Shown here piece after piece: positions 21,907 to 64,000 of a stretch of 64,000 bases of DNA. Made by a program: the position numbers and the translations under genes. This stretch comes from an uncultured Bacteroidales bacterium (GTDB taxonomy: Bacteria > Bacteroidota > Bacteroidia > Bacteroidales > Paludibacteraceae), in contig ONPG01000006.1 of assembly GCA_900319645.1 (NCBI GenBank), forward strand, positions 9,816 to 73,815, in the 5' to 3' direction. How positions within the stretch are numbered: the first letter of the stretch is position 1; every line of letters starts with the position of its first letter. The notes under the pieces are model-generated. The model saw only the letters and a program-made list of their open reading frames with translations. It did no database searches and was not told the DNA's origin.

Positions 21907-22815
21907 ATGAAAGGAATCATTTTAGCAGGCGGAAGCGCCACACGTTTGTATCCGTTGAGCAAAGCGATCAGCAAACAGATTATGCCGGTCTATGACAAGC
22001 CGATGATTTATTACCCCCTGTCGGCCCTGATGATGGCAGGGATTCGTGAGGTGCTGGTGATCAGTACTCCGCGCGATCTGCCGATGTTTGAGGATCTGTT
22101 AGGCGACGGAAACCGTCTGGGAATGAAACTGGAGTATAAAGTTCAGTTGGTGCCGAACGGACTGGCGCAGGCTTTTGTGCTGGGCAAAGAGTTTCTGAAC
22201 GGCGAGCCGGGTTGTCTGATTCTGGGCGATAATATGTTCTACGGCCAGCATTTCAGCCGCATGCTCAAGGATGCGGTAGCGGAAGTGGAGACGCAGGGCG
22301 GTGCCTGCATCTTCGGCTACGAAGTAGCAGATCCGCGTGCGTACGGCGTGGTGGAGTTCAAGAAAGTGCAAGACGAAGCGCAAGGAACCAAGGAGGCACT
22401 GCAGGTGCTGAGTCTGGAGGAGAAGCCGGAGCATCCGAAGAGCCATTACGCCGTACCGGGTTTGTATTTCTACGACGCGCAGGTGTGCGAAAAGGCGGCA
22501 GCGCTGAAACCCAGTGCCCGCGGAGAATATGAGATCACGGATCTGAACAAGAGTTATCTGGCGGACGGGACCCTCAAAGTGAAGTTGTTCAGCCGCGGAT
22601 TTGCGTGGCTCGATACGGGTAACTGCGACAGTCTGTTAGAGGCGGGTAATTTCATCGCTACCATCCAGAACCGTCAGGGTTTCTACGTAAGTTGTATCGA
22701 GGAGATCGCCTGGCGCAACGGCTGGATCAGCAGCGACAAACTGGCTCAGTTGGGACACGAGATGAAGACCGCTTACGGTCGGTATCTGGAGCGCCTGGCG
22801 GAGAAGGGAAATTGA
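21907..22815 (+). CDS. rfbA: Glucose-1-phosphate thymidylyltransferase
   Basis: 302 residues, usual length. It makes dTDP-glucose from dTTP and glucose-1-phosphate, the first step to dTDP-L-rhamnose. Seen: nucleotide-binding LAGGSATRLYPLS (6-18; Ala replaces the usual second Gly of GGSGTRL), KQIMPVYDKPMIYYPLS, metal-binding GDNMFYG (about 109) and LEEKPEHPKSHYAVPGLYFYD. The gene stands alone with its own promoter; rfbB is 32 kb away (54862), and rfbC/rfbD are not in the window, so the dTDP-sugar genes are dispersed. Short reiterated words follow directly after the stop. Confidence 0.93.
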   Translation: MKGIILAGGSATRLYPLSKAISKQIMPVYDKPMIYYPLSALMMAGIREVLVISTPRDLPMFEDLLGDGNRLGMKLEYKVQLVPNGLAQAFVLGKEFLNGEPGCLILGDNMFYGQHFSRMLKDAVAEVETQGGACIFGYEVADPRAYGVVEFKKVQDEAQGTKEALQVLSLEEKPEHPKSHYAVPGLYFYDAQVCEKAAALKPSARGEYEITDLNKSYLADGTLKVKLFSRGFAWLDTGNCDSLLEAGNFIATIQNRQGFYVSCIEEIAWRNGWISSDKLAQLGHEMKTAYGRYLERLAEKGN

Positions 22816-23035
22816 CAATGGACAATGGACAATGGACAATGGACAAAAAAAGATGCGAAGAGGGGGCTATATCGGCTTTGGCATTGGCTTTGGCAATGGC
22901 TTTGGCAATGGCACGGGCGGCGCGGAAAAGCTGCGAAGGGGGCCTATCCCGATATTGGCTCGATATTGGCTCGATAATGGACCGATAAAATTGAAAGCTG
23001 AAAACTGAAAGTTGAAAGCTGAAAACTGACAATTA
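22814..23035. repeat. Reiterated short words (four kinds in one gap)
   Basis: From left to right: GACAATG words (22814-22850), TTGGCAATGGC words (22876-22918), CGATATTGGCT words (22949-22985) and GAAAGCTGAAAACTG words (22990-23030). They fill the gap between rfbA and the hybrid regulator. No promoter of the standard kind is visible among them. Confidence 0.8.
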
Positions 23036-38785: not shown

Positions 38786-39664
38786 TTATTTTATTGTTTT
38801 GTCACATAAATTAAGCATTATTCTACCTAAATAGGCTCCGCTCTTGCCCATTTGGCAGAGAGGAATACTGTCTCCGTCGAGATTGGCGACGCGCAAACGG
38901 TCGTACATTTGATGGGTGTGTCCGCCTATAATGACGTCAATGCCACGGGTGTTCTGCGCCATGGCAACATCGCACACTCCGTCGCCGGGTTTGGTATAGG
39001 TGCCGAGGTGGCTGAGACAGATGACCACATCGCAATTCCTGGCGCGCAGCAGGTCGGCCGTTTGTTGCGCCACGGCGTAGGGGTGGCGATAGACGGCGGG
39101 TTGGAAATTCTTGTTGGCTATCAGTCCTTTGGGGTCGCAGCCCAGACCGAAGATACCTATCTTGAGTCCGGCGCGTCGTATGATCGTATAGGGTTGGACG
39201 ATTTTCTCCAGGGCTGTGCCGGTGAAATCATAGTTGGCGCAGAGGACCGGGAACTTCGCTCCCCGGAGCACGGCAGCCAGTGTGTCGAGGCCGTTGTCGA
39301 ACTCGTGGTTGCCGAGTGTGACGGCGTCGTAACCCATCCTGTTCATCGCGTCTATCTCCACGCGTCCGTGGTAGAAATTGAAATACGGTGTACCCTGACA
39401 GAAATCACCGGCATCCAGCAGCAGCAGATCCGGGTCCGCCTTGCGTTCCTCAGCGATGAGACCCATTCGACGTGCGTAGCCGCCTTGGCCGTTGGCTTTG
39501 GGCTCGATCTGCGAGTGGGTGTCGTTGGTGTGCAGGATAGTCAGATGGTCCGCCTTCGGCGTACAGGACACCAAAAGGACAATGTACAAAGTACAAAGGA
39601 CAAAGGACAATGTACAAAGGACAAAGGACAAAGGTCTAAGGACTGCGTGCAATAGATTTCTCAT
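38786..39664 (-). CDS. Metallophosphatase lipoprotein (5'-nucleotidase N-terminal half)
   Basis: 292 residues from ATG 39664. The catalytic half of UshA-type nucleotidases is complete: HTNDTHS, DAGDFCQG, GNHEFDNG, LSHLG and GGHTHQM ligate two metals. The C-terminal substrate-binding half is missing; in Bacteroides it is often a separate gene, but none is adjacent. Lipobox LLVSC near residue 33. The signal region RPLSFVLCTLSFVLCTLYIV is encoded by reiterated TTTGTCC/TTTGTAC words (39565-39643), described as a finding. mutL is 25 bases upstream. Confidence 0.88.
   Translation of the reverse strand: MRNLLHAVLRPLSFVLCTLSFVLCTLYIVLLVSCTPKADHLTILHTNDTHSQIEPKANGQGGYARRMGLIAEERKADPDLLLLDAGDFCQGTPYFNFYHGRVEIDAMNRMGYDAVTLGNHEFDNGLDTLAAVLRGAKFPVLCANYDFTGTALEKIVQPYTIIRRAGLKIGIFGLGCDPKGLIANKNFQPAVYRHPYAVAQQTADLLRARNCDVVICLSHLGTYTKPGDGVCDVAMAQNTRGIDVIIGGHTHQMYDRLRVANLDGDSIPLCQMGKSGAYLGRIMLNLCDKTIK
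39565..39643 (-). repeat. Reiterated words coding for a signal peptide
   Basis: On the + strand: GGACAATGTACAAAG and ACAAAGGACAA words, about seven in 79 bases. On the coding strand they read CTTTGTCC/CTTTGTAC and give LSFVLCT repeats of the metallophosphatase signal peptide. Confidence 0.85.
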
Positions 39665-39689
39665 ATAATTATCGATTGTCAATTCTCAA

Positions 39690-41507
39690 TTAAAACCGTT
39701 TCCCGATTTCTTCGTCCGTGAGGACGGAAACGATGGTTTTTCCGTCGGGTGTATGGCGGTATTGAGGCAGACGGAGCAACGACTGCACCAGATGCAGCCG
39801 CTCGTCCGCACTCAGATGTTTTCCGTAGGGAATAGCGATGCTTTCCGCCAGGGCGAGTGCTATCTGGTGCTGCCACTCCTCGCGTGCGCCCGCGCCGCGC
39901 TCGCGTACCTCTGTTAATATATGTTGCAATACGGGTAGGGCGGACTGGTTAGCCAGTTGCGACGGGATACCTTGTACCGAATAGCTGTCCGGGGTCAGTT
40001 GCTCCAGGTCGAAACCGATAGCCCTTAGGTCAGGCAGGAGCGTAGCGATCAGCACCATTTCGTCCGCCGGGAGGTGAAGCACTTCGGGGAAGAGGAGCTG
40101 CTGCATCGCGCCTTGGTCTTGCCGGATTTGGTCGGACAGCTGCGCGTAGAGCACCGCCACGTGGGCGCGGTGCTGGTTGATAAGCCACAGACCGTTCTCA
40201 CCGGACATCAGGATATATTTGTCGGCGTACTGCCAAAGGCTGTCGGCGGTGAGTGTCTCGCCATCGGCAGCGGGTTGCGGCACCTCCGGCTCCATCCGGT
40301 CCGGGTAGATCACGCTCTGTTTTGGGGACGCGGGTGTGGCGTATAGTTGATCCCAACCTTTGACCGACGGCTGCCTGTTGGCGAAGCTTTCGCGGGTGTG
40401 GAAGGGGTTGTAGTTCGGGTCTATAGTCACCTGCGGCGCCGAAGCAGGACGGTTGGTGGGCATCGGGATGTCGATGCTGCCGCGGGTGTCGAAATCTATT
40501 TGCGGAGCCAGGGTGAACTTACCCAACGCTTCGCGAACCGACGCCATCAGGATCTGGAAGATTGTCTGTTCGTCGGCGAACTTGATTTCGGTTTTGGTAG
40601 GGTGGATATTGACATCTATCGCTTCCGGCGAGATGTCGAAATAGATAAAGAAAGACGGCTGGTACTCGCCCGGGAGCATTCCTGAGTAGGCGGTCAGCAC
40701 TGCTTTCTGGAAATAGGGGTGACGCATATAGCGTCCGTTGACGAAGAAATACTGTTCGGCTTTGCGGGTGGTGTTCTCCGGTTTGGAGACAAAGCCGCGT
40801 ATAGACACCAGTTCGGTGTCGGTGCTTATCTCAACGAGGTTGGCTGTGAATGAGTTGCGTGAGGGGTTACCGAAGATAGCCTCGATACGCTGTTTCTCGG
40901 AGCCTGAAGGCAGTTCGAGGAGAATCTCGTCGTTGTGGACGAACGTGAAATGGGTTTTTGGATAGACCAACACGATGCGGTAGAACTCGGTCAGCAGGTT
41001 GCGCAGTTCGGTCTGGTCGGTCTTGAGAAACTTACGTCTCACGGGGACGTTGAAAAAGAGGTTGCTGACCTTGATGTTGGTTCCTACGGGGCAGCTGCAC
41101 ACTTCCTGGCGGATGACATCCGAGCCGTGTATCTCCAAGAGTGTACCAGTCTCGTCCTCGGCGCGGCGGGTCTGCATCTCCACTTGCGACACCGCACATA
41201 TCGACGGCAGTGCTTCGCCTCGGAAGCCCATCGTACGGAGCGAGAAGAGATCCTGTGCCTGACGGATTTTGCTGGTGGCGTGACGCTCGAAAGCCAGCCG
41301 GGCGTCGCTCTCGCTCATTCCGCAGCCGTTGTCAATCACTTGGAGCACCGTTCTCCCCGCATCACGCACCAGCACCTGGATGCGCGTGGCTCCGGCATCC
41401 AGACTGTTCTCTACCAACTCTTTCAGACACGACGCAGGGCGTTGGATCACCTCGCCTGCTGCTATCTGGTTGGCGACGTTGTCGGGTAGAAGATGAATGA
41501 CATCCAT
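39690..41507 (-). CDS. mutL: DNA mismatch repair protein MutL
   Basis: 605 residues. N-terminal GHKL ATPase: AAGEVIQRPASCLKELVENSLDAG, DNGCGMS, GFRGEALPSI and KFLKTDQTE are all present. The C-terminal dimer part begins after a linker at about 330-400. The usual endonuclease motif DQHAAHERxxYE reads NQHRAHVAVLYAQL, lacking the Asp and Glu ligands, and the last motif is TPDGKTIV rather than CPHGRP. Nicking activity is therefore doubtful. The metallophosphatase follows after 25 bases. Confidence 0.93.
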   Translation of the reverse strand: MDVIHLLPDNVANQIAAGEVIQRPASCLKELVENSLDAGATRIQVLVRDAGRTVLQVIDNGCGMSESDARLAFERHATSKIRQAQDLFSLRTMGFRGEALPSICAVSQVEMQTRRAEDETGTLLEIHGSDVIRQEVCSCPVGTNIKVSNLFFNVPVRRKFLKTDQTELRNLLTEFYRIVLVYPKTHFTFVHNDEILLELPSGSEKQRIEAIFGNPSRNSFTANLVEISTDTELVSIRGFVSKPENTTRKAEQYFFVNGRYMRHPYFQKAVLTAYSGMLPGEYQPSFFIYFDISPEAIDVNIHPTKTEIKFADEQTIFQILMASVREALGKFTLAPQIDFDTRGSIDIPMPTNRPASAPQVTIDPNYNPFHTRESFANRQPSVKGWDQLYATPASPKQSVIYPDRMEPEVPQPAADGETLTADSLWQYADKYILMSGENGLWLINQHRAHVAVLYAQLSDQIRQDQGAMQQLLFPEVLHLPADEMVLIATLLPDLRAIGFDLEQLTPDSYSVQGIPSQLANQSALPVLQHILTEVRERGAGAREEWQHQIALALAESIAIPYGKHLSADERLHLVQSLLRLPQYRHTPDGKTIVSVLTDEEIGKRF

Positions 41508-41559
41508 AGGAAGGGACTAAGGGACGATGGACAATGGACAATGGACGATGTCGTATTCT

Positions 41560-63310: not shown

Positions 63311-63584
63311 AGTATTGATAGTTTTTTTAGTTAATTATTCGTGTTTAAGGTGGTGATGGAAGGATTTTTTCCAAAAACCGCGGCAAAATTACTAAAATAT
63401 ATTGAACGTGCGCCTATACGCGCAGATGTTTTGCAACACACACAACGTGTTTTGGCTCTTCCGAAGGTGCTTTGCGGTGTTATAACAGACACACAATCAG
63501 CGTGTACTGGGAATTGGAACTTTCTTTCGAAAAGCGTTTCGCAACCTTTCGAAACTTGGGACTGGCGGAAACGGAAAGGAAAAC

Positions 63585-63755
63585 GGAAAAATGAAAACTG
63601 AAAACGGAAAAGGAAACTGAAAACTGAAAGGGGCTCCGACATACTATGCCGGAGATTATATAAACACTCCGCGTGGGGCCAAGGAAATTGAAAACGGAAA
63701 CGGAAAACTGAAAACGGAAAACTGAAAAGGGAAAGGAAACTGAAAGGGGAAAGGA
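63585..63755 (+). repeat. GAAAACTGAAAACGG word array
   Basis: More than ten variants of GAAAACTGAAA and GAAAACGGAAA in two blocks separated by the unique stretch 63633-63680. Related words occur before the hybrid regulator (22990-23030) and at the start of the MBL gene (52066-52090). Confidence 0.8.
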
Positions 63756-63833
63756 AGATGGAGGAGTGCACTCACAGGAATCGGGGGCTTTTTTTATGTC
63801 TCTCTCTCGTTTTTCTCCCGTAGCTCTTCCGAT

Positions 63834-63888
63834 AATCACCCATGAATCACCCATGAATCACCCATGAATCACCCATGAATCACCCATT
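63834..63888 (+). repeat. Five tandem 11-base units AATCACCCATG
   Basis: Units at 63834, 63845, 63856, 63867 and 63878; the last ends in T instead of G. The word AATCACCCAT also occurs (reverse) in the asd-U32 gap near 35800-35815. Confidence 0.9.
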
Positions 63889-64000
63889 GTTAACTGATAA
63901 ATGAAAACTGAAAACTGAAAGGAAATATATGATTTATGATTTAAGATTTATGATTGAAGATTGGAGATTGGAGGGGAAGTTTGCGAAATAGGCGAATGAC

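Follow-up and report, generated by a model that had tools for sequence, protein, structure and literature searches.

Heptanucleotide repeat words in DNA encoding predicted signal-peptide cores in one genus of Paludibacteraceae

The hydrophobic core of a predicted lipoprotein signal peptide from an uncultured Bacteroidales bacterium (Paludibacteraceae) is translated from an imperfect tandem array of 7-bp words, and we consider it probable that existing signal-peptide cores in this genus have been overwritten at the DNA level by such heptamer words, with the hydrophobic strand kept by selection. The period originates at the DNA level, the words recur in the signal peptides of many protein families and use all reading frames, they turn over between relatives and are sorted by strand, and this word type is nearly restricted to one genus among the genomes searched. 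Judging by their sequence, the run-encoded peptides would work in export.

The window, i.e., the whole stretch of 64,000 nucleotides that was analysed, carries on its minus strand a gene for a metallophosphatase lipoprotein of 292 amino acids (38786..39664). According to its translation, the protein has a calcineurin-like domain (PF00149, E-value 1.7e-15); it also resembles UshA (135.8 bits, far under the family cut-off of 600), and its single match in its own genome, which is 84.2% complete, is itself. The gene upstream reads by eye as a probable MutL. The signal-peptide coding DNA, from the ATG to the lipobox Cys, comprises 34 codons (39563..39664, minus strand; translation and a regular-expression lipobox), and its core coincides with a period-7 run (39574..39643, minus strand) with the coding-strand words TTTGTCC, TTTGTAC, and ATTGTCC. 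Tandem Repeats Finder (TRF) describes this array as 10.0 copies of a 7-bp unit with 82% matches or, alternatively, as 2.2 copies of a 28-bp unit with 96% matches. In the frame leading from the ATG at 39664 to the stop at 38786, the run yields the peptide MRNLLHAVLRPLSFVLCTLSFVLCTLYIVLLVSC, in which a positive n-region, a hydrophobic core, and a lipobox Cys are all present; the lipobox at the end of the signal peptide, which an earlier note on this DNA had pointed out, was called by eye and by a regular expression combined with hydropathy, and the signal peptide is thus a predicted one. The core is unusually long for a lipoprotein signal peptide, and 33 residues precede the Cys, compared to a median of 18 (range 15–33) in 42 orthologues that share at least 80% identity and have an aligned Cys, among which L033 and L054 also have long signal peptides. 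A second, weak period-7 run of the AATTATC type (39667..39692; TRF score 31, 73% matches) lies in the gap that separates the upstream gene from the start codon. The first gene caller picked a later start codon and thereby assigned the main run to an intergenic gap; a second caller, scanning for signal peptides near the start, recovered the signal peptide. No sign of a MITE-like element (RU, RPE) was seen at the run, as inverted repeats of at least 10 bp are absent from 39480–39760.

The earlier note had regarded the core as a direct translation of repeat DNA, and this reading holds: the TRF array lies inside the segment that it described, and the period-7 score of the signal-peptide DNA, 32, is reached by none of 2000 synonymous recodings, whose mean is 5.5. 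The repeat itself is therefore confirmed, but its unit is 7 bp, not the 8-letter words that had been quoted. Among the 81 signal peptides of the family (80 orthologues and the window), eight have a score that none of 2000 recodings reaches; scores of at least 12 are seen at period 7 in nine and at period 14 in two, and at no other period from 2 to 15, while the majority of the 81 have no period signal. The words are read in all three phases (58, 59, and 72 cases). Moreover, orthologues may carry them in shifted frames, e.g., L160 and L176, 87% identical in the compared part, have FVLCTL and FCTLYLV, respectively, and likewise L219 and L227, also at 87% identity.

The tendency of the runs towards signal peptides was estimated on unbiased samples, namely, 464 kb of genome G000 and 400 kb of genome G035 of the genus, with 262 kb of control genomes from two other families, using simple scripts to find genes and signal peptides and a score threshold of 10. 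Pooled over G000 and G035, eight out of 148 signal peptides contain runs, compared to none out of 163 internal membrane helices (p 0.002) and seven out of 2532 other coding windows (p 3e-7). For G000 and G035, respectively, the counts are 5/73 and 3/75 for signal peptides (0.03 and 0.05 expected from recoding), 0/86 and 0/77 for internal membrane helices, and 2/1312 and 5/1220 for internal coding windows; the small excess in the coding windows of G035 is not specific to period 7, because six windows score as high at other periods, compared to five at period 7. The control genomes gave no runs in 36 signal peptides, 60 helices, and 692 coding windows, and the difference between the pooled signal peptides and these 36, taken alone, is not significant (p 0.36). 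A scan restricted to lipoproteins found two high-scoring ones out of 26 in G000 (0.02 expected) and 15 out of 133 in 80 loci (0.23 expected), all 15 being the metallophosphatase gene.

Words of the same type as those of the core also form non-coding runs, as the earlier note had observed. In the window, a GGACAAT run (41522..41550, word matches at 41529–41542; TRF and gene calls) is called intergenic, and an AATGGAC run (22810..22846, word matches at 22820–22847; TRF and gene calls) lies at the 3′ end of a called gene and beyond; overall, 14 word matches with at most two mismatches were observed in the window against 0.5 expected, eight of them inside the signal-peptide run. Genome-wide, there are 58 three-word GKACAAW matches, overlapping ones counted, and none for the reversed control. 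In 464 kb, runs with scores of at least 16 number 45 at period 7, 26 at period 14, and 16 at period 11, with at most eight at any other period from 4 to 15 and none in the Markov control. The 7-bp tandem unit thus occurs at many genomic places, well above chance, as is characteristic of dispersed heptanucleotide repeats. Many runs are located in intergenic DNA or at gene 3′ ends, and the genome contains further heptamer word types, AATTGAC, AACTGAA, and CTTTCGA among them. A composite tract resembling TTTGTACTTTGTACATTGTCCCTTTGTAC, which combines 7-nt with 8-nt steps, is found repeatedly inside and outside signal peptides, and the presence of the 8-nt step in both settings hints at copying between tracts. 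Three-word counts for TTGTAC and TTGTCC are, respectively, 0 and 35 in G004, 19 and 1 in G034, and 12 and 53 in G000. We make no claim that signal peptides share their word dialect with the remainder of the genome, since the non-coding words of G000 are mostly TTGTCC, whereas its signal peptides mostly have TTGTAC.

We then consider recurrence across 61 genomes, 37 of the genus and 24 of other families of the order. A pattern consisting of ATGA, 5–35 bases, and two words matched 26 out of 37 genomes of the genus and one out of 24 of the other families (137 rows in 27 of the 61 genomes); a stricter three-word pattern matched four out of 13 genomes of the genus and one out of 137 others of the family. 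The control pattern with AGTA, matching 57 rows in 21 of the 61 genomes, is not clean, as some of its rows lie at signal peptides of the ATGA pattern. All 116 distinct places from the ATGA search were looked at. The open reading frames (ORFs) from the ATG are lipoprotein-like at 26 of them and similar to signal peptidase I substrates at 32 (a few of these, L156, L170, and L193, being doubtful), have a hydrophobic N-terminus at four, are of another kind at one, and are shorter than 90 codons at 53, including L257, which looks like a signal peptide cut by the contig end. In four of the 63 longer ORFs the start is unsure, because 40 or more open codons precede it. Other signal peptides of this kind, for which the earlier note had suggested a search, are therefore present in the same genome and genus, 62 out of 116 places having signal-peptide-like or hydrophobic N-termini. 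Sixty of these 62 are available over at least 120 residues and fall into 42 protein clusters; 16 out of 20 proteins scanned had Pfam matches, to families including solute-binding, SusD, HlyD, TPR, OmpH-like, OstA-like, GDSL lipase, M49 peptidase, alginate-lyase, and fimbrillin-like proteins. These other word-built signal peptides consist of two or three words each. In L003 (G000 C3:33372), a likely word-built lipoprotein signal peptide, MKAKANAKANAANAFLSIVHRPLSFVHCTLLLCTFLCGC, the n-region itself is repetitive.

The turnover of the words was traced in metallophosphatase orthologues from the best 80 of 92 relatives, assemblies of Paludibacteraceae and other Bacteroidales, many of them of ruminant origin according to their titles. 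The tree has 80 rows, that is, 79 orthologues and the window (L110 was left out, being without the anchor motif used), and by word pattern 13 of them, the window included, are labelled TTGTMC, six ATTC, four TATC/TTTC, and 57 none. On the mature-domain tree, well-supported branches force at least four, two, and three changes of the three word labels, respectively. With support 100/97, for instance, L039 (TATC) groups as sister to L034 and L038, both TTGTMC, and the start and the lipobox are kept. The word type hardly clusters on the tree, as shuffles scored as low in 219/500, 50/500, and 500/500 cases; we take this as fast turnover, although part of it may be noise from the labelling patterns, which are imperfect (L060, with score 11, is labelled none). 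The nearest orthologue, L031 (79%), has the core LYLVLCPFVF, close to YLVLCPFVF and YIVLCPF of the TTGTMC relatives, in other codons and with no period (p 0.46 in the recoding test), which is evidence against a recent origin. The earlier note had named orthologues with the same residues in unrelated codons as the sign of a protein-level origin; L031 goes part of the way towards this. We read L031 as a possible older word run eroded under protein selection, and in the metallophosphatase gene the residues may also predate the run.

The two strands are used differently. Of the 116 places with the pyrimidine-strand pattern, 59 begin an ORF that is 90 codons or longer and is preceded by fewer than 40 open codons; of 28 purine-strand loci, one does so (Fisher p 1e-6, a value that is slightly too strong, given that a few of these 28 loci overlap). 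The purine pattern matched 68 rows in 20 of the 61 genomes, and the comparison covers the 28 loci returned. Of the other 54 places among the 116, 44 are in opposite-strand frames open for at least 150 codons, where the words often read as hydrophilic peptides, e.g., DNGQWTMDNGQW or DVQSDDVQCTK, many of them approximately 30 residues before the stop. A census of G000 and G035 comprised 158 runs with scores of at least 12. Long open frames, many of which may not be genes, contain 81 of them; after exclusion of 12 that precede the first ATG, the sense reading is more hydrophobic than the antisense one for 10 out of 11 runs within the first 30 codons and for 24 out of 58 further on.

By eye, L153, L182, L225, L226, L236, and L243 have hydrophilic linkers, encoded by the same words on the opposite strand, such as EDVQSDDVQCTKVIENGVLYIIRDG, some 29–32 residues before the stop, followed by what we take to be a C-terminal sorting segment. 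In L191, L197, L221, and L248, which look like housekeeping enzymes or regulators (MurG-like, methyltransferase-like, response-regulator-like, and Mur-ligase-like, respectively), word-made hydrophilic segments such as QRTKDKGQK appear as if they were surface loops. As a tentative reading, word writing could be a genome-wide process in the genus that leaves words at permissive sites, the pyrimidine strand providing signal-peptide cores and the purine strand providing hydrophilic loops as well as linkers that precede C-terminal segments. If so, the repeats would keep both export signals and linkers in steady supply, and their peptides would not depend on the frame, since 7 and 3 share no factor.

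The overwriting of cores could proceed as follows. Native heptamer words would enter the DNA that encodes the hydrophobic core in a signal peptide already present, probably written by slippage together with copying between tracts, and then grow or replace the core. The pyrimidine-rich strand (TTTGTMC and kin) would be read as a hydrophobic cyclic heptapeptide, e.g., LSFVLCT, which is the same in all three frames, because 3 does not divide 7; since it is hydrophobic in every frame, many phases and many lengths that keep the downstream frame would still give a usable core. Selection would hold the start, the charged n-region, and the cleavage site, with the letters of the core coming from the repeat.

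Other origins of the runs have to be weighed against these data. In a phase-variable switch, the addition or removal of one 7-bp unit would shift the frame after the signal peptide and turn the lipoprotein on or off, in analogy to the CTCTT repeat of opa, which is likewise non-triplet and inside the leader (PMC3960869); we consider such a switch unlikely, given that the 7-bp units are imperfect (82% matches, as opposed to 96% for the 28-bp unit), that only two or three words make up each of the other word-built signal peptides, and that these belong to very mixed protein families. The words might instead be a binding site or another mRNA or DNA signal near the coding start, with the hydrophobic peptide as a by-product, and T-rich heptamers near starts have indeed been proposed as binding sites (PMC4679880); strand and position track hydrophobicity, however, and many runs are intergenic or at 3′ ends, which renders this explanation very unlikely. 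We give almost no credence to convergence of proteins, whereby cores rich in Leu, Phe, Val, Cys, Ser, and Thr would look repeated by chance or through selection on residues: the LYLVLCPFVF of L031, so like the TTGTMC relatives in spite of its other codons, would suit it, but it is disfavoured by the recoding test, the use of three phases, the frame-shifted orthologues, and the fact that only periods 7 and 14 stand out.

The earlier note had seen in the run a direct route for new signal peptides. In its strict form, where a non-coding repeat became the start of the gene and created an export signal, this is highly improbable, even with the weak run just upstream of the start (39667–39692) in its favour, as close orthologues without a run have ordinary signal peptides. 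Only three out of 62 signal-peptide matches have an upstream run with a score of at least 10 within 80 bases, which also speaks against an extension of such runs into the gene from upstream. In the close orthologues seen, the position of the signal peptide is unchanged whether or not a run is present; thus, the claim of new signal peptides is unsupported and the runs appear to rewrite existing signals. No case of a run creating export was found among the metallophosphatase orthologues and the 62 signal-peptide matches. What counts against overwriting of existing cores by heptamer words, the explanation that we favour, is that 57 out of 80 tree rows have no run according to the label patterns, and that all 15 high-scoring lipoproteins in the 80 loci are one gene. 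To these points are added the codons of L031, the non-significant comparison with the control genomes, the periods other than 7 in the coding windows of G035, and the differing word types of signal peptides and non-coding DNA in G000.

Among known repeats, STRRs are heptamers, and repeats of this type reportedly occur in cyanobacterial RNase P RNA. The closest known systems appear to be the Neisseria opa leaders and the enterobacterial RU-2, and by analogy the present case behaves like a blend of both. The opa system has CTCTT leader repeats in one gene family, with one perfect 5-bp unit switching expression (PMC3960869), and RU-2 is a 168-bp dispersed mobile sequence forming part of predicted signal peptides at few loci (PMC2759123). 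The runs described here share with opa the short non-triplet tandem unit in the 5′ leader-coding region, but they are made of imperfect 7-bp words, and occur in many unrelated genes and also in non-coding DNA; unlike RU-2, they consist of 7-bp words in dozens of genes and all frames. Dispersed heptanucleotide repeats, namely, TAACTGA (PMC4679880) and G-rich heptamers of Xanthomonas and Nostoc (PMC4692102), are similar in having a 7-bp unit at many places, mostly outside genes, but in these papers each has one fixed word, whereas here there are several word types, enriched in signal-peptide DNA. Borg tandem repeats inside ORFs (PMC9879509) and Rickettsia palindromic elements in genes (RPEs; PMC10969869) likewise turn repeat DNA in open frames into new peptide segments; however, the former have units divisible by 3 and mostly yield disordered regions, and the latter are ~150 bp long, in contrast to the non-triplet 7-bp words. 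New relative to opa and RU-2 are the many families, the non-triplet unit used in all frames, and the near-restriction to one genus. No paper on heptamer-built signal peptides was found in open-access PMC text among the matches listed.

These runs may thus present a case in which many exported proteins of one genus owe functional segments to simple repeats. It is an old idea that signal peptides need little beyond hydrophobicity. This idea becomes testable here, as the same words occur in three frames in dozens of genes, and sister species form natural before-and-after pairs. At the same time, similar signal peptides in these genomes need not imply common protein descent.

TRF also found other repeats in the window, namely, a perfect 11-bp tandem array of 4.9 copies, AATCACCCATG (63834–63887), beside which several 7-bp arrays lie at 63569–63973, and a 69-bp repeat of 7.5 copies (469–988), presumably part of a leucine-rich-repeat surface protein.
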